Below are positions 40,319 through 55,817 of a stretch of DNA of 64,000 nucleotides, one piece after another. Source of the stretch: Yoonia sp. (lineage in GTDB: Bacteria > Pseudomonadota > Alphaproteobacteria > Rhodobacterales > Rhodobacteraceae); NCBI RefSeq assembly GCF_018402175.1, contig NZ_JAGYJK010000018.1, forward strand, positions 496,001 through 560,000, in the 5' to 3' direction. A program made the position numbers and the translations under genes. Each line of letters starts with the position of its first letter. Position 1 is the stretch's first letter. Under the pieces are notes generated by a model that was not told the origin of the DNA, searched no databases, and saw nothing but the letters and a program-made list of their open reading frames with translations.

Positions 40319-40344
40319 GTAAGGTGGATCATGATCCACCTTAC
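40319..40344. repeat. REP-like palindrome P1 (metK 3' end)
   Basis: A perfect 26-bp palindrome: GTAAGGTGGATCA joined to its own reverse complement. It lies 2 bp beyond the reconstructed metK stop. Near-identical palindromes occur at 45610-45635 and 48419-48444. There is no following T-run, so it is not a classical terminator. Confidence 0.9.
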
Positions 40345-45609: not shown

Positions 45610-45635
45610 GTAAGGTGGGTCTTGACCCACCCTAC
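45610..45635. repeat. REP-like palindrome P2 (on the miaB stop codon)
   Basis: GTAAGGTGGGTCT joined to TGACCCACCCTAC, one mismatch from a perfect palindrome. On the minus strand it contains the TAG stop of miaB (45634-45632). It belongs to the family at 40319 and 48419. Confidence 0.88.
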
Positions 45636-46942
45636 CCGATCAATTCACCCTTGAGCGAATTGGCGCTGTCCTGCACGATCCGCACACGGCGCACCTGCCC
45701 CAGCACCGTGACGGGGGCATCGGCATAGACGGCATGCAGATATTCGGATTTGCCGATCATCTGGCCCGCCTCGCGGCCAGCCTTTTCGAACAAAACCTTG
45801 ACCTCGCGGCCGATCATGCTGGCCTGGGTCTGTTGTTGCTGGTCGCGCAGCAGAGCCTGCAGGCGCTGCAGCCGTTCGTTCATGACATCATCGGGCAGCT
45901 GCGGTTTCTCGGCAGCCGGCGTGCCGGGGCGGGTGGAATATTTGAACGAATAGGCCTGCCCGTAATGCACATCGCGCACCAGTTGCAGCGTGTCCTCGAA
46001 ATCCTGATCCGTCTCGCCGGGGAAACCCACGATGAAATCGCCTGACAGCAGGATATCGGGGCGCGCGGTGCGGATCCGGTCGATCAAGCGCAGGTATTCC
46101 GCTGCCGTATGTTTGCGGTTCATCGCCTTGAGGATACGGTCAGACCCCGATTGCACCGGCAAATGCAGATAGGGCATCAGTTTGTCGCAGGTGCCATGCG
46201 CGTCGATCAGCGCCTGATCCATGTCATTGGGGTGGCTGGTGGTGAAGCGGATACGTTTCAGCCCGTCGATCTCGGCCAAGGCCCAGATCAGGCCCGCCAG
46301 CCCGCGCTCATGCCCGTGATAGGCGTTCACATTCTGGCCCAGCAGCGTCAGTTCGCGCACGCCCGCATCGACCAGTTCACGCGCCTCGCGCAGGATACGG
46401 TCGGCGGGGCGCGAGACCTCGGCCCCGCGGGTATAAGGCACGACGCAGAAGGCGCAGAATTTGTCGCAGCCTTCCTGCACGGTCAAAAACGCGGTCGGAC
46501 CGCGTTTGGCCTTTGATCGTGTCTTCAGCGTCTCGAATTTGTCATCATCGGGAAAATCGGTGTCAAGCGCCTTGGCACCCCCCTGCACGGCCGCATCCAT
46601 CGCGGGCAGGCGATGATAGCTTTGTGGCCCGACCACCAGATCGACCATCGGCTGGCGGCGCATGATCTCTGCCCCCTCGGCCTGTGCGACGCAGCCTGCC
46701 ACGCCGATTTTCAGATCGGGTTTCGCGTCTTTCAGCACCTTCATGCGGCCCAGTTCGGAATAGACCTTTTCCGCCGCCTTTTCGCGGATATGGCACGTGT
46801 TCAGCAGGATCATATCCGCGTCTTCGGCATGGTCGGTCTGCACATAGCCCTGCCCGCCCAGCGCCTCGGCCATGCGTTCGCTGTCATAGACGTTCATCTG
46901 GCAGCCATAGGTCTTGATAAAGAGCTTTTTGGGCGCAGTCAT
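45632..46942 (-). CDS. miaB: tRNA-2-methylthio-N6-dimethylallyladenosine synthase
   Basis: 436-aa radical-SAM methylthiotransferase modifying A37. The N-terminal cluster cysteines are in [24 protein letters not shown] and [12 protein letters not shown]; the radical-SAM CX3CX2C is [16 protein letters not shown]; a C-terminal TRAM domain ends the protein. ATG 46942 gives [15 protein letters not shown]; an in-frame opening at 47173 is rejected. The stop codon lies inside REP-like palindrome P2. It is upstream of phoH on the same strand. Confidence 0.96.
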
Positions 46943-47053
46943 GGGTTCGATCCGGTGCTGAGGTTGGGGGCGTTCTAGCGGCTTGGGGCTTTGCTTGCAA
47001 TGCGGCGCGATCTGGCACAATTTGCGCGTGTCTTTCACGGATGCCCGCCGCCC

Positions 47054-47911
47054 ATGCATTACCCCAACCTGTCCGCCCTGACCGCCGATAAAACGCGCGC
47101 CCTGTCCAAAGGGCCTGTCTGCCTGATCCTGATCGAAGATCAGGTCGCGGTAGAGCAAACGATCCGGCATCATGCGGCCCTTGGCTTTGGCACGCTGATC
47201 GCGTTCTGCGATCCGGCCATCGCCCTACCTGCGGATGTCGCACTGCACCGCGTCGATCATGACGTGACCCAGCCAGAGGCCCTGCCCCAGATCATCAACA
47301 CCATTAGCGCAGCCGCGCGTCGTGCGTGGATATATTACTGCTATAACGCCGAATTCCTGTTCTTTCCTTTCAGCGCGGATCGCAATCTGCGCGAGATGCT
47401 GACCTTCGTGACCGAAGAACGGCGCGACAGCGTGATGACCCATGTGATCGACCTATATGCGCGCGATCTGACCACCCATCCCGATGCGGTAGACCTCGAA
47501 GAGGCATGGTTCGACAGTGCGGGCTATTTTGCAATTCCGCGGCGTGATCCAGCGGGTGCTCTACTTGACCGGCAGGTGGATATCTGCGGCGGCCTGCGCT
47601 GGCGGTTTGAGGACCATGTCCCACCCGCACGCCGCAGGCTGGACCGTGTCGCCCTGTTCCGCGCGGCCAAGGGCGTGGTCATGGGGCCGGATCACCGGTT
47701 CAGCGATCCAGAATACAACACCTATGCCTGCCCATGGCACCACAGCGTGACCGCCGCCATCTGTTCGTTCCGCGCGGCCAAGGCTTTGCGGCGCAACCCT
47801 GGCAGCCGCGATGCTATAGCCACGTTTCACTGGCCAAAATCGGTGCGTTTTACATGGCAGGCGCAGCAATTGCTGGATCTGGGGATGATGGAGCCTGGGC
47901 AATGGTTCTGA
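47054..47911 (+). CDS. Hypothetical protein, possibly glycosyltransferase-like
   Basis: 285 aa from the ATG at 47054 ([16 protein letters not shown]); a TTG at 46991 would add 21 less typical residues. The segment [20 protein letters not shown] resembles the start of GT2/GT92-like domains that handle a nearby acceptor, and the C-terminal half ends in a [20 protein letters not shown] helix. No catalytic DXD is certain. It is divergent from miaB. Its last 62 bases overlap the convergent RAYT-like gene. The function is not assigned. Confidence 0.6.
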
Positions 47912-48383
47912 ACGTCGCGCCTTTGTCGTGATGCCATGATGCATAGGGCCAGTCGGTCGCGCGGCGCACCAGCCCTGCGCGGACAGGGGCCGTGGTGATC
48001 AGATGCAGATGCAGTGCAAAATCGCCATCATCCCGGATCACATGTTCCCAGAACCGGCGCTGCCAGATGCCTTTTTCGCCACGGCGTTTCTGCACCGCGG
48101 TCAGATTGTCAGGCACAGGCAGATGCCGCGAAAATGTGGATTTGATCATCCGCCAGCGCCCCGAAAAATCGGCATCACCCGCAGGCAATGTCCAGATCAT
48201 GTGGAGTTCGGCAGGCAGGATCACGGCCGCATCGATACGGAACGGCGATTGTTTGCGGCACAGGCGCACCGCATCGCGCAGCAGGCCGATCCGCGCCGTC
48301 AGCAGGTCGGACCGCTGGTCCTGCAAACGGACGGTAAAGAAATAGGTCCCGCCGGGGACATAGCGCCGGATATACTGTGACAT
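47850..48383 (-). CDS. REP-associated tyrosine transposase-like protein, catalytic residues lost
   Basis: 177 aa. Family features of RAYTs (Y1 transposase, IS200-like fold) are clear: YIRRYVPGGTYFFTVRLQDQ, DAAVILPAELHMIWTLPAGD, FSGRWRMIKSTFSRHLP and GIWQRRFWEHVIRDDGDFAL. The HUH motif normally HMH or HLH here reads ELH, and the catalytic Tyr position (family HVDYIHYNPV) reads HLHLITTAPV, so both His and Tyr are missing. It is therefore likely inactive as a nuclease, or repurposed as a DNA-binding protein. Palindrome P3 lies 36 bp upstream of its start. Confidence 0.82.
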   Translation of the reverse strand: MSQYIRRYVPGGTYFFTVRLQDQRSDLLTARIGLLRDAVRLCRKQSPFRIDAAVILPAELHMIWTLPAGDADFSGRWRMIKSTFSRHLPVPDNLTAVQKRRGEKGIWQRRFWEHVIRDDGDFALHLHLITTAPVRAGLVRRATDWPYASWHHDKGATFRTIAQAPSSPDPAIAAPAM

Positions 48384-48418
48384 CCGGTCAGCTTGCGGCA
48401 GAATGGTTAATTCATCGT

Positions 48419-48444
48419 GTAGGGTGGATTGAAATCCACCTTAC
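48419..48444. repeat. REP-like palindrome P3 (on the irr stop codon, beside the RAYT gene)
   Basis: GTAGGGTGGATTG joined to AAATCCACCTTAC, a near-perfect palindrome (two mismatched pairs). On the minus strand it contains the irr stop TAA (48443-48441) and it sits just upstream of the RAYT-like gene, the classical RAYT/REP arrangement. Confidence 0.88.
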
Positions 48445-48857
48445 TTGCGGCGCAGCCGGATCACGACATCGACCGATGCAATCTCGGCCCCTGCGGGCGC
48501 ATGCGGCAGGCGGCGGATTTCCAGCTGGTCGGCGGGAGCATCCGTCAGGCTGGCCGTGTCTTCCCAATAGAAATGCGGATGATCGGTCATATTGGTGTCG
48601 AAATAGCTTTTCGAGCCATCGACCGTGATCTCGCGCATCAGGCCGGCATCGCAAAAGGCGCGCAAAGTGTTGTAAACCGTGGCCAGCGACACCTTTTCGC
48701 CCGCGGCACTGGCGGCATCGAACAGGCTTTCGGCGGTGACATGGCGGTTCTGCCCGTCGCCCACCAACAGGTCAGCCAGCGTCAGCCGCTGCCGCGTCGG
48801 GCGCAAGCCTGCGCCTGCCAGCCAGTCGGTTCCGCGGTGATTGTCCATGTCTTTCAT
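48441..48857 (-). CDS. irr: Iron response regulator Irr (Fur family)
   Basis: 138 aa. Winged helix: GLRPTRQRLTLADLLVGDG and KVSLATVYNTLRAFCDAGL. The Irr-type motif DHPHFYWED replaces the Fur metal site. In Alphaproteobacteria Irr senses haem status and represses haem and iron-use genes under iron limitation. It is divergent from fabA across 148 bp, the conserved irr-fabA neighbourhood of this order. Confidence 0.9.
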   Translation of the reverse strand: MKDMDNHRGTDWLAGAGLRPTRQRLTLADLLVGDGQNRHVTAESLFDAASAAGEKVSLATVYNTLRAFCDAGLMREITVDGSKSYFDTNMTDHPHFYWEDTASLTDAPADQLEIRRLPHAPAGAEIASVDVVIRLRRK

Positions 48858-49708: not shown

Positions 49709-50763
49709 TTGATTTGAATGGTATAGTGCTGCCCGCCGAAGATGCTTGGAAAGACGACAAGCTCGGTTATAGTGAGATTGGTCACGCGTTCACCAACCTT
49801 ATTCAGTCGCTTGACACAGAAAAAGTCATTTCTATCGAGGCTGGGTTTGGTCGTGGAAAAACATTTTTCCGCCGAGCTTGGGCAGAGCAGTTACGGTCGG
49901 CGGGAGAAGTCGTAATTGAAGTTGACCTGCAGCAGTCTGATCATTCAGGTGATCCCCTCATTACCCTGCTCGGAGCGCTGGTAGACGCAATACCCAAAGG
50001 CACAAACACAACAGGTCAGCGAGCATTGGAGTCCGCGAAGAAGGTTGGAGCGCTATCTTTTCGTGCACTCACCCGTGCCATCCTCCGAGAAGGCGCCGAG
50101 GAAGTCTTTGAAACGTTAAGCGATGCTGCCATCGACCAATTAAAAGATTTCGACGCGCTTGATGACATTATTAAAGGCGTTGGCGGCGAGATGTCGAAAG
50201 TGGCCGGACAACTCATCGCATCACAGATGGCCGCTGAAAGGGTTCGAAAAACAGAACTTCCCAACCAGCTTGAAGCTCTGCGGAACGCGCTCATTGATGG
50301 CACACAAAGCGAACGAGTTGTAGTGATAATTGATGAGTTGGATCGCTGCCACCCCGAATATGCGATTTCTTTTTTGGAATCGACAAAACTCATCTTCGGC
50401 CGGTCTGGCTTCGTATTCTGTTTAATGGTCAACTCAGCCTATTTAGAAAATCTTGCAAGGCATAGGTTCGGCGTCGCGCAGGATGATGAAAAATACCTAG
50501 ACAAGTTTGTAGACATCAGACTGAAGCTTGCCCCTCAAAACGAGACTTTCAAGGCGGCTGTTTATGAAATGGCGTGTGATTTACCTTTAAAGATCGCTTA
50601 CGGCGATAATGAAGCATTTTCAGTAAAGCGCGCAGCGGAACTGGCTAGCACACTTGCAGTCGAGTGTGGCTTTTCCATACGCAAGACCAAGCGAGTATTG
50701 CTGAAGATTGAACTTGCTTTGCGCTGCTACGCGGATCGGCCCTTAGAGGCTGATTTGAAACTA

Positions 50764-51677
50764 ATTGAGTGAGTTCAGCAGGTTGTGCTTCTGTTCGGGT
50801 ATGAAGCTGAACGGAGATCACGATGGCCTGGACCGAACTCACCCGACGCCAACATGCCCGAGTGGGCGACAAGTATGCAAGCGATCTGACAGACCCCGAA
50901 TGGGCACTGATCGCGCCCTTCATGCCAGCACCCAAGACCACGGGCAGACCCCGCACCACAAGCTTGCGCGACGTGTTCGACGCGATCCTCTACATGGCTA
51001 CGACCGGGTGCCAGTGGCGGATGCTGCCAAACGACTTTCCGGCGGTATCGACTGTGCGGGGCTATTTCTATGCTTGGCGCAACGACGGTTTTCTCGATGA
51101 GATGAACCGCAAGCTGGTTGAAGCCGCGCGGCTGGCGGAGGGCCGCAAAGCCCAGCCGACAGCGGGCATCATCGACAGCCAAAGTGTAAAAACCACGGAA
51201 AGTGGAGGGGTTAGCGGATATGATGCCGGAAAAAGGGTCAAGGGCCGCAAGCGCCATATCGTCACTGACACGACCGGATTGCTCGTCGGTCTCGAGGTCC
51301 ACAGCGCCGAAATTCAGGACCGTGACGGCGCGCCGGATGTGCTGAAAGCCGTCGCCGCGCGCTATCCCATGCTGCGTCATATCTTTGCCGATGGTGGCTA
51401 CGCAGGCCCCAAACTGCGGGAGGCGCTGAAAGCCATCGGACGCTGGAGCGTCCAGATCGTCAAACGCTCGGACGCGGCACAAGGGTTTGAAGTCTTACCC
51501 CGCCGATGGGTCGTGGAGCGCACCCTTGCCTGGCTCGGGCGATGCCGCCGCCTGTCAAAGGATTGGGAGAAATCCATCGCCAGCGCAGAGGCTTGGGTGC
51601 TCATCGCCCATATTCGCCGCGTGACCCGCCACCTTGCAAGGAACTGAAAACGCTCGCTGAGTTTTGAATCAGACTCT
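50764..51677 (+). mobile_element. IS5-family insertion sequence (IS427/IS1031-like)
   Basis: About 914 bp. The right end reads TTTTGAATCAGACTCT; its reverse complement (GAGTCTGATTCA) partly matches the left GAGTGAGTTCA at 50767, giving imperfect inverted ends. The host TA is present on both sides (50762-50763 and 51678-51679), which fits the 2-3 bp duplication of this group. It carries one transposase gene. Exact ends may shift by a few bases. Confidence 0.85.
50823..51647 (+). CDS. IS5-family transposase
   Basis: 274-aa DDE transposase in one frame. An N-terminal DUF4096 domain (LTDPEWALIAPFMP, GCQWRMLPNDFPAVSTV) is followed by the DDE core: GIIDSQSVKTTESGG (D), HIFADGGYAGPKL (D) and RWVVERTLAWLGRCRRLSKD (E). 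The N-terminus MAWTELTRRQHAR and the length are normal, with no frameshift, so it may be active. It interrupts the KAP NTPase gene in the same orientation. Confidence 0.95.
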   Translation: MAWTELTRRQHARVGDKYASDLTDPEWALIAPFMPAPKTTGRPRTTSLRDVFDAILYMATTGCQWRMLPNDFPAVSTVRGYFYAWRNDGFLDEMNRKLVEAARLAEGRKAQPTAGIIDSQSVKTTESGGVSGYDAGKRVKGRKRHIVTDTTGLLVGLEVHSAEIQDRDGAPDVLKAVAARYPMLRHIFADGGYAGPKLREALKAIGRWSVQIVKRSDAAQGFEVLPRRWVVERTLAWLGRCRRLSKDWEKSIASAEAWVLIAHIRRVTRHLARN

Positions 51678-54320: not shown

Positions 54321-55817
54321 AGTTCGCCCTGAAGAACTCTCATCCTACTGTTTTTCATTCATAAAATTCGGTTTTTGCTAGGTTTTAGTTGCAGCTATTG
54401 GTATAATTGTAGTCAGAACCCTGCAATTTCGAGCTGCGATATGAAGCCCAGAAAGCCGCCTCCGGAACAAGATGACCTGCTGCGCGCACGGTTGGTCGAA
54501 ATGATCGACATGCGCCACGAACTGGTGAAGCTCGCCGACCTGATCGACTGGGAGGTGTTCGAGCGGGAATGGGCCGGGTTCTTCCCGTCGCAGACCGGTC
54601 GCCCGGCCACGCCGACGCGCGTGATCGCGGGGCTTCTCTATCTTCAGCACGCCTTTCGGCTGTCCGATGAAGCGGTGGTGGCGCGGTGGGCGGAGAACCC
54701 TTACTGGCAGCATTTCTGCGGCGAGACGTTCTTTCTGCATCGCCTGCCGATCGACCCGTCATCGATGACGCGCTGGCGCAACCGGATTGGCGAGGAGGGT
54801 GTCGAGTGGCTGCTGACCGAGACGATCAAGGCCGGACAGCGCGCCGGGGCGGTGCAGGATGACCACCTGAAGAAGGTTACCGTCGATACGACCGTGATGG
54901 AAAAGAACATCGCGCACCCCACCGATGCCCGGCTCTACGAAAGGGCACGGCGCAAGCTCGTCGGGCTGGCACGTGAGGCGGGCATCGACCTGCGCCAGAA
55001 CTACAACCGCCTCGGCCCCCGGCTATCCGGCCAGGTCGGCCGCTATGCCCATGCCCGTCAGTTCAAGCGGATGAGCAAGACGCTGCGTCGGCTTAAGGGC
55101 TATACCGGGCGCGTGCTGCGCGACATCGAACGGCAGATGGACAAGGTTATGGAAGGGCCGCTCAAGGCGCGGATCACGGAGGTCACGGCGCTTGTGAACC
55201 GGCTGCTGGCGCAGAAGCCGAAGGACCGCAAGAAGCTTTACAGCCTGCATGAGCCGGCGGTGGACTGCATCTCGAAGGGGAAAGCGCATAAGCGCTACGA
55301 GTTCGGCACGAAGGTCAGCGTCGCCACCACCACCGAGGGCGGCTTCGTCGTCGGCATGCGGTCGCTGCCGGGCAACCCTTACGACGGTCACACCCTGCAC
55401 GAGGCGCTGGAGCAGGTGGAAATCCTGACCGACCGGCGCCCGGACATGGCTTTCGTCGATCGTGGCTACCGTGGCCACGGCGTTGAAACCGTGAAGGTCT
55501 TCATCAGCGGTGCGCGGCGCGGCATCACCAGGACCATCGCGAAACTGCTGCGACGACGAAGCGCCATCGAGCCGATGATCGGCCACATGAAGACCGACGG
55601 CCGCCTGACCCGATGCCCGCTGAAGGGAACCACCGGCGATGCCCTCTTCGCGGTCCTGTGCGGCTGCGGTCACAACATCCGCATGATCCTGCGCCACCTG
55701 AGGGTCTTTTTGTACTGGATCATCCGGCTGATCACACTGCTCCGAGGGTTCACGCAGGACGCCGGTCGCCATCAGGCAATGCAGTTCGCCGCCTGAGGTC
55801 GTTGTTCAGGATGAACT
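54321..55817 (+). mobile_element. IS5-family insertion sequence inside repeat copy E
   Basis: About 1.5 kb. Inverted ends: left AGTTCGCCCTGAAGAAC, right (reverse complement) AGTTCATCCTGAACAAC. The 4-bp ATTT is repeated on both sides (54317-54320 and 55818-55821), as expected for IS5-type insertion. Removing the IS and one ATTT rebuilds an R2 repeat (GGGGATATTTATTCTCGGAA then GATG). Confidence 0.9.
54441..55796 (+). CDS. IS5-family transposase (long form)
   Basis: 451 aa in one frame. An N-terminal helical domain (WAGFFPSQTGRPATPTRVIA, AFRLSDEAVVARWAENPYWQ) is followed by the DDE core VTVDTTVMEKNIAHPTD (D), DMAFVDRGYRGHGV (D) and RRRSAIEPMIGHMKTDGRL (E). The start MKPRKPPPEQDD at 54441 fits; a frame opening at 54375 adds non-conserved residues. 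The element has clean ends and an intact gene, so it looks recent. It lies between the convergent fabI and FKBP genes and damages neither. Confidence 0.92.
   Translation: MKPRKPPPEQDDLLRARLVEMIDMRHELVKLADLIDWEVFEREWAGFFPSQTGRPATPTRVIAGLLYLQHAFRLSDEAVVARWAENPYWQHFCGETFFLHRLPIDPSSMTRWRNRIGEEGVEWLLTETIKAGQRAGAVQDDHLKKVTVDTTVMEKNIAHPTDARLYERARRKLVGLAREAGIDLRQNYNRLGPRLSGQVGRYAHARQFKRMSKTLRRLKGYTGRVLRDIERQMDKVMEGPLKARITEVTALVNRLLAQKPKDRKKLYSLHEPAVDCISKGKAHKRYEFGTKVSVATTTEGGFVVGMRSLPGNPYDGHTLHEALEQVEILTDRRPDMAFVDRGYRGHGVETVKVFISGARRGITRTIAKLLRRRSAIEPMIGHMKTDGRLTRCPLKGTTGDALFAVLCGCGHNIRMILRHLRVFLYWIIRLITLLRGFTQDAGRHQAMQFAA

Follow-up and report, generated by a model that had tools for sequence, protein, structure and literature searches.

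We have identified in Yoonia sp. a RAYT-family gene without catalytic residues, whose product is probably a domesticated, vertically inherited RAYT that would have lost strand cleavage, kept its fold and its recognition of REPs, and bind a REP family of its own. It encodes 177 amino acids on the reverse strand (47850–48383) of the window, i.e., the whole 64,000-nucleotide stretch of DNA that was analysed.

The locus and the residues lost from the protein

The gene begins with an ATG codon and was recognised by the open reading frame call, by NCBIfam and by the match of its product to PDB entry 4er8 in sequence and fold. Its upstream neighbour is irr, encoding the iron response regulator (48441–48857, reverse strand; NF045678, 1.7e-61), and its convergent neighbour is a GT2-like gene (46991–47911, forward strand; Glyco_tranf_2_4, 2.9e-07, and synteny). 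According to the ORF coordinates, the C-terminal coding end of the RAYT-like gene overlaps the 3' end of the GT2-like gene in antisense (47850–47911, reverse strand). Beyond the latter lies miaB (TIGR01574, 1.4e-146, residues 83–512), whose extent is 45632–47173 on the reverse strand according to the ORF caller, the start being probably further downstream. The REP palindrome is found between irr and the RAYT-like gene (48419–48444). It is a 26-mer, GTAGGGTGGATTGAAATCCACCTTAC, composed as GTAG-GGTGGATT-GA-AATCCACC-TTAC, and the irr stop codon falls inside its end tag. A second REP of the same family, detected as a core match with at most two mismatches, lies between trmB and metK (40323–40340). 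Thus, of the palindromes that an earlier note on this DNA had placed near metK, miaB and irr, two sites were found (48423–48440 and 40323–40340) and not three separate ones. Elsewhere in the window, the interval from fabA to the KAS I (fabB-like) gene holds an ORF for a KAP-type P-loop NTPase (Pfam 2.9e-24) and an IS5-type transposase (49714–51647, forward strand), and a second DDE-type transposase ORF (DUF772, DDE_Tnp_1) is located at 54375–55796 (forward strand).

The earlier note held that the protein keeps the RAYT scaffold, and this is correct. It matches the NCBIfam model NF047646 (REP_Tyr_transpos) with an E value of 3e-49 and 166.6 bits (cut-off 80) over residues 4–147, so that the homology spans the whole RAYT core domain, and a Pfam search assigned no family to it. 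The sole PDB sequence match at E values up to 1 was the E. coli TnpAREP, 4er8 (7.8e-39), and the same entry ranks first in fold comparisons with the AF2 model (pLDDT 83.9; Foldseek 4.4e-18; Z 20.4 with 142 residues aligned and rmsd 2.0).

The alignment to 4er8 confirmed the two substitutions previously noticed. The HMH of 4er8 corresponds to ELH at residues 59–61, the first HUH His being replaced by Glu (codon 59, 48207–48209, reverse strand) and the second one (61) being retained, and the catalytic Tyr is replaced by Leu (codon 128, 48000–48002, reverse strand). This account of the catalytic loss was nevertheless incomplete, since it did not mention that the metal-ligand Asn is replaced by Ala (codon 132, 47988–47990, reverse strand), nor that RAYTs with complete motifs occur elsewhere in many of the same genomes. 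The Y---NP motif reads LITTAP, and it is a passage of PMC6006769 that gives the RAYT Asn its role as a metal ligand. Codons 108–117 (48033–48062, reverse strand) encode Q108, E113 and R117, which align with Q95, E100 and R104 of 4er8. In a passage of PMC8266576, the GTAG contacts are given as Q95, D100 (as printed) and R104; the aligned residue at position 100 of 4er8 is Glu. These three positions are largely conserved among the syntenic copies described below (Q in 50/52, E in 44/52 and R in 47/52).

The conserved C-terminal tail was considered as a functional domain and rejected, since it overlaps the GT2-like gene, has a low pLDDT in the AF2 model and is most variable at codon position 2 (differences of 0.285/0.514/0.281 at the three positions). 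Because the codon-position pattern of residues 162–177 deviates in this way, the tail seems to be held by the overlapping GT2-like frame.

A fixed locus under purifying selection

We searched 119 genomes for RAYT matches and, by mapping their neighbours, classified as syntenic those copies lying beside irr on the GT2-like/miaB side. A syntenic copy is present in 53 of the 56 genomes of this marine genus (Yoonia/Loktanella) and in one genome of another genus (G061); it was not found in G030, G054 and G055. The GT2/miaB side is present at every syntenic copy of the genus except L019, where the contig ends before GT2, and in 20 of the 54 copies irr is placed about 0.9 kb further upstream. The syntenic copies form a single clade (SH-aLRT 98). 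The gene has therefore both a fixed locus and vertical inheritance, as a domesticated gene should.

The syntenic gene is under purifying selection. The median dN/dS over residues 1–150 was 0.127 (5–95%: 0.047–0.288) for the 66 pairs with a usable synonymous distance, the lowest value in a sister pair being 0.024, and 0.197 for non-syntenic copies (78 pairs). Codon-position differences in the syntenic gene (0.289/0.227/0.560) are greatest at the third position. Relaxed selection, which would have spoken against domestication, was not found. The ordinary decay of a transposase gene has some damaged copies in its favour, i.e., the broken L063 and L086, the internal deletion of L020 and the early stop of L051. 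However, the reading frame of 52 of the 54 syntenic copies is uninterrupted for at least 140 codons, dN/dS is low, third positions differ most, and the substitutes are themselves conserved (Ala132 in 51/52; Leu or Val128 in 52/52), which makes decay hardly credible. Taken over the entire clade, the selection result is itself evidence against it, and the persistence of the gene in 53/56 genomes together with purifying selection supports the claim of the earlier note that this is a domesticated protein rather than a decaying one.

We compared the key residues of the 52 alignable syntenic copies with those of 34 non-syntenic RAYTs (31 from the genus and 3 from other genera). His59 is present in 1/52 syntenic vs 34/34 non-syntenic proteins, His61 in 47/52 vs 34/34, Tyr128 in 0/52 vs 31/34, and Asn132 in 0/52 vs 31/34. 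A clade without Tyr and under purifying selection had been anticipated and was found; the ELH motif that it was expected to share was not, as residue 59 is most commonly Lys (29/52) and is Glu in only 4/52. Homologues with a normal HUH and Tyr, whose presence in close relatives would have contradicted domestication, did not appear among the syntenic copies.

As a rule, HUH enzymes require both the metal site and the Tyr. The protein could still cut if its active site had been rebuilt around His87, His125 and His127 (H-x-H), which are nearly invariant in the clade. In fact, His87 (49/52 syntenic vs 4/34 non-syntenic) and His127 (50/52 vs 3/34) are typical of the syntenic copies; His125 is common to both sets (49/52 and 28/34). 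We regard this explanation as very unlikely, because residue 128 is Leu or Val in all 52 copies and the comparison of two sister species (see below) showed no clear new REP insertion.

The source genome also carries one non-syntenic RAYT with complete motifs, located beside a ThyX-like gene. Among the 53 genus genomes with the syntenic gene, 29 hold a non-syntenic RAYT locus (some of them truncated) and the other 24 have no full-length non-syntenic RAYT (22 no second match, 2 short fragments only).

To follow the residues outside the genus, 394 genomes of the family were searched, of which 127 had a match; loci were taken from the best 30 genomes, and 28 of them (L285–L312) belong to other genera. 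Eight of these 28 loci, all with Ala132, are found at the irr/GT2/miaB locus (L294 is the same locus as L081), and HUH is still present in four of the eight (residue 128: Tyr in L287, Phe in L286 and L289, Leu in L288). More Ala132 proteins, e.g., from Roseobacter- and Tateyamaria-named records, lack the irr/GT2/miaB neighbours. In a tree built without the catalytic columns (123 rows), one branch with a support of 90 separates all the Ala132 rows except L308, and the tree requires 2 changes for Ala132, 7 for Tyr128 and 6 for His59. These counts suggest that Asn132 was probably lost first in this RAYT clade, and Tyr and His later and more than once. Two non-syntenic RAYTs from other genera, L300 and L308, have apparently suffered a separate catalytic loss, reading QHIL and HRIA at positions 59/61/128/132.

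The REP family and its covariation with the gene

The REP core at 48423–48440 is one of two matches in the window with at most two mismatches, where the chance mean is 0.02. In the source genome, 15 exact matches to the core, GGTGGATNNNNATCCACC, and a single one containing a mismatch were found, and the reversed-pattern control gave 0 matches. The palindrome thus represents a separate REP family, and the RAYT-like gene is adjoined by a REP that recurs across the genome. Exact cores of two types, GGTGGAT and GATGSRT, were counted in the 56 genomes; these counts leave out the GGTGGGT type genome-wide and include one or two copies at the RAYT-like gene itself. Of the 53 genus genomes that carry the syntenic gene, 42 have 10–71 REPs each.

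The pattern G[GA]TGG[GA]T-N4-A[CT]CCA[CT]C is found within 300 bp upstream of the gene in 39 of the 53 genus copies. These 39 genomes also have at least 10 REPs, 11 genomes have neither feature, and the three exceptions (G016, G026 and G049) have REPs, but the pattern is not matched upstream of the gene. In 38 of 39 genomes, the upstream REP is of the same type as the REPs of the genome at large. In 17 syntenic copies (e.g., L053, L047 and L048) the coding sequence itself contains a second REP at +461, which is hence translated, and in L051 this REP lies just past the early stop. Counting L051, its arms are identical to those of the upstream copy in 12 of 18 cases; in L045, L051, L056, L060 and L062 they read GATGCGT vs GATGGGT upstream, as if they were diverging.

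It might be argued that these REPs are the trans targets of canonical RAYTs, or were so in the recent past, the syntenic gene being a passenger or a dominant-negative inhibitor. Non-syntenic RAYT loci are indeed present in 29 of the 53 genomes, and the turnover of sites between distant species (see below) needs some mobilising activity. However, none of the 34 non-syntenic copies has the REP pattern of the syntenic gene within 300 bp. Many of them adjoin other GTAG-tagged palindromes, those of L069, L070 and L080 having similar arms with a wider spacing. In addition, REPs are not more numerous when a non-syntenic RAYT exists (median 21 vs 29 without it), and at least 10 REPs are found in 18 of the 24 genomes without a full-length non-syntenic RAYT vs 24 of the 29 with a non-syntenic locus. 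We therefore consider this explanation improbable.

The REPs vary together with the N-terminal sequence of the syntenic protein. Tyr or His at residue 4 together with Arg6 was found in 39/40 genes where the genome has at least 10 REPs vs 1/11 of the rest (Fisher 9e-9), but the motif and the threshold were both selected with the data in view, and the genomes are related to one another; this Y-x-R motif is mostly absent in REP-poor genomes. G044 keeps the motif with only 3 REPs and has lost Q108 and E113, and G017 has no Arg6, yet has 14 REPs. The gene is broken in G049 (47 REPs) and in G016 (11 REPs), and no RAYT was found in G055 (13 REPs), the assembly of which has 440 contigs and is 92% complete. 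On a tree of the neighbouring genes, the motif and the REP trait each change about six times; of the 5 independent pairs, 4 show agreement, or 3 under a tenth of the pairings, and none runs against it (sign test 0.125–0.25); on the tree of the gene itself, 1 of 2 independent pairs agrees.

The REP type is also associated with residue 2, which is Ser or Ala in the 26 genomes of GGTGGAT type and Thr in the 14 of GATGGRT type, a perfect correspondence over 40 rows that involves about three switches on the trees. The agreement is 2/2 pairs (p 0.5) on the neighbouring-gene tree and 1/1 on the gene's own tree. The tree-corrected association tests are thus not significant, because there are few independent events. 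We take residue 2 as a lead and not as an established specificity residue, since it was picked out of 155 columns as the best one, and the REP type changes only about three times. A putative action of the protein at the palindromes, which the earlier note had suggested, is supported by this covariation of REPs and protein.

REP sites in related genomes

G005 and G008 are sister species, both without a second RAYT match. Of the 30 exact G008 REPs, 24 match an exact G005 REP (23 of 29 loci). Among the remaining loci (6 of G008 and 3 of G005), the corresponding site in the other genome was located for 8, of which 7 hold the same REP with arm mismatches, including L222 and L209, with both arms changed at the same site. 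The flanks of L227 have diverged, and L241 was not found in the sister-genome stretches examined. Altogether, 29/30 and 27/28 REPs have a counterpart at the corresponding site of the sister genome, whether identical or mismatched in the arms, and this comparison revealed no clear new insertion that would indicate recent REP movement without a second RAYT. The arms differ less than the flanks (13/420 vs 317/3360, p 2e-6; 6/378 vs 273/3024, p 1e-8; the flanks include coding sequence), and the tags differ nearly as often as the flanks (19/240 and 16/216, both ends pooled). Among the arm pairs with changes, pairing is broken in 10 and 2 and compensated in 1 and 2.

G042 has REPs of the GATGGRT type and also lacks a second RAYT match. 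Seven of its 20 sampled REP loci coincide with a GGTGGAT-type REP elsewhere, with both arms changed. In these cases the two REPs share a gene junction, except at L263, where they share a position inside a gene; the match at L276 is based on a single flank. One of the seven corresponds to the window site at 40323, and the orthologous REP of G042 reads GATGGGTTTCAACCCATC. On the other hand, only 4 of the 15 REPs of the source genome are at orthologous places in G008, which implies a turnover of REPs over longer times that a dead enzyme leaves unexplained.

According to crude ORF calls, the REPs lie mostly between tandem or convergent genes (27/32 in G008, 28/31 in G005, 19/24 in G042 and 10/15 in the source genome) and seldom between divergent ones (1/32, 0/31, 2/24 and 4/15, respectively). 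The contexts in G005, G008 and G042 thus make a promoter-type function less likely, though it may yet apply, given that 4/15 of the source genome's own REPs are divergent. Since REPs are mostly tandem or convergent, an influence on the 3' ends of genes or on the structure of the chromosome seems likelier than one on promoters.

The same contexts fit REPs that are maintained because they act as hairpins in their own right (at mRNA 3' ends, in termination or in supercoiling), the dead RAYT having another job and sharing with them only ancestry and location. They are those expected of 3'-end elements, though 4/15 own REPs are divergent; in addition, the arms are more conserved than the tags, and REPs persist where the gene is broken or undetected (G016, G049 and G055). 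We find this explanation unlikely, though less so than the action of canonical RAYTs, since it does not account for the joint variation of REP presence and N-terminal motif, for the agreement of REP type with the locus in 38/39 genomes, or for the change of arm type in place. Because this last change occurs at orthologous sites, a shared trans factor is called for.

Probable recognition without cleavage

Since the fold, the residues aligned with the GTAG contacts and a dedicated REP family have been kept, and the metal ligands and the nucleophile have been lost, REP recognition without cutting would be the most likely activity of this protein. We infer REP binding, the absence of cleavage and any effect on expression or chromosome structure from sequence comparisons. 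The domesticated RAYT would bind its own GTAG/GTAA-tagged palindromes, probably as single-stranded or extruded hairpins. The REP just upstream of its own start would be among the bound sites, and autoregulation would then be likely. Protein and palindrome would co-evolve, so that when one is lost or changes its type, the other would tend to follow. More tentatively, and as a possibility to which we give less than even weight, the RAYT/REP pair may have turned into a pure recognition network, in which a catalysis-free protein serves dozens of mostly fixed palindromes, the arms are retuned genome-wide in concert (GGTGGAT vs GATGGRT at orthologous sites), and residue 2 (Ser/Ala vs Thr) or its neighbours are part of the specificity switch.

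The system resembles the RAYT/TnpAREP of E. coli (4er8) in sequence, in fold, in the adjoining GTAG-type REP and in the residues aligned with the GTAG contacts. It differs from it in that the first HUH His, the Tyr and the metal-ligand Asn have been lost clade-wide, in its single fixed locus, and in its REPs, which number only 10–71 in most genomes and have largely kept their places between the two sister species compared. It shares palindromic REPs, a GTAG tag and a short loop with the group 3 TnpAREP described in parts of PMC8266576, whose REPs are perfect palindromes; however, cleavage of the cognate REPs is reported for the group 3 proteins assayed in that work, and Tyr mutants served as catalytic mutants. 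A passage of PMC3733652 reports HUH and Tyr as conserved across all the RAYTs that it aligned, and one of PMC6006769 retains the 722 of 924 sequences having both the HuH and Y motifs, the others being deemed probably non-functional. The proteins studied here also lack these motifs, but unlike what that exclusion assumes, their clade shows purifying selection. In the literature searched, we found no report of a catalysis-free RAYT clade. The proposal of Bertels and Rainey, as cited in a passage of PMC8049555, that REPINs and RAYTs form a promoter/transcription-factor system likewise sees the RAYT as a binder of dispersed sites. It was made for RAYTs generally, whereas here REPs between divergent genes are rare in G008 and G005, yet not in the source genome.

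Whether REPs are selfish leftovers or useful to the host is presented as an open question in a passage of PMC8049555. This clade offers a natural lineage in which a RAYT has lost its catalytic residues and REP number, arm type and many positions have been kept, and which thereby separates binding from transposition. Moreover, complete and catalysis-free RAYTs share one genome, beside different palindromes, and constitute a testable set.
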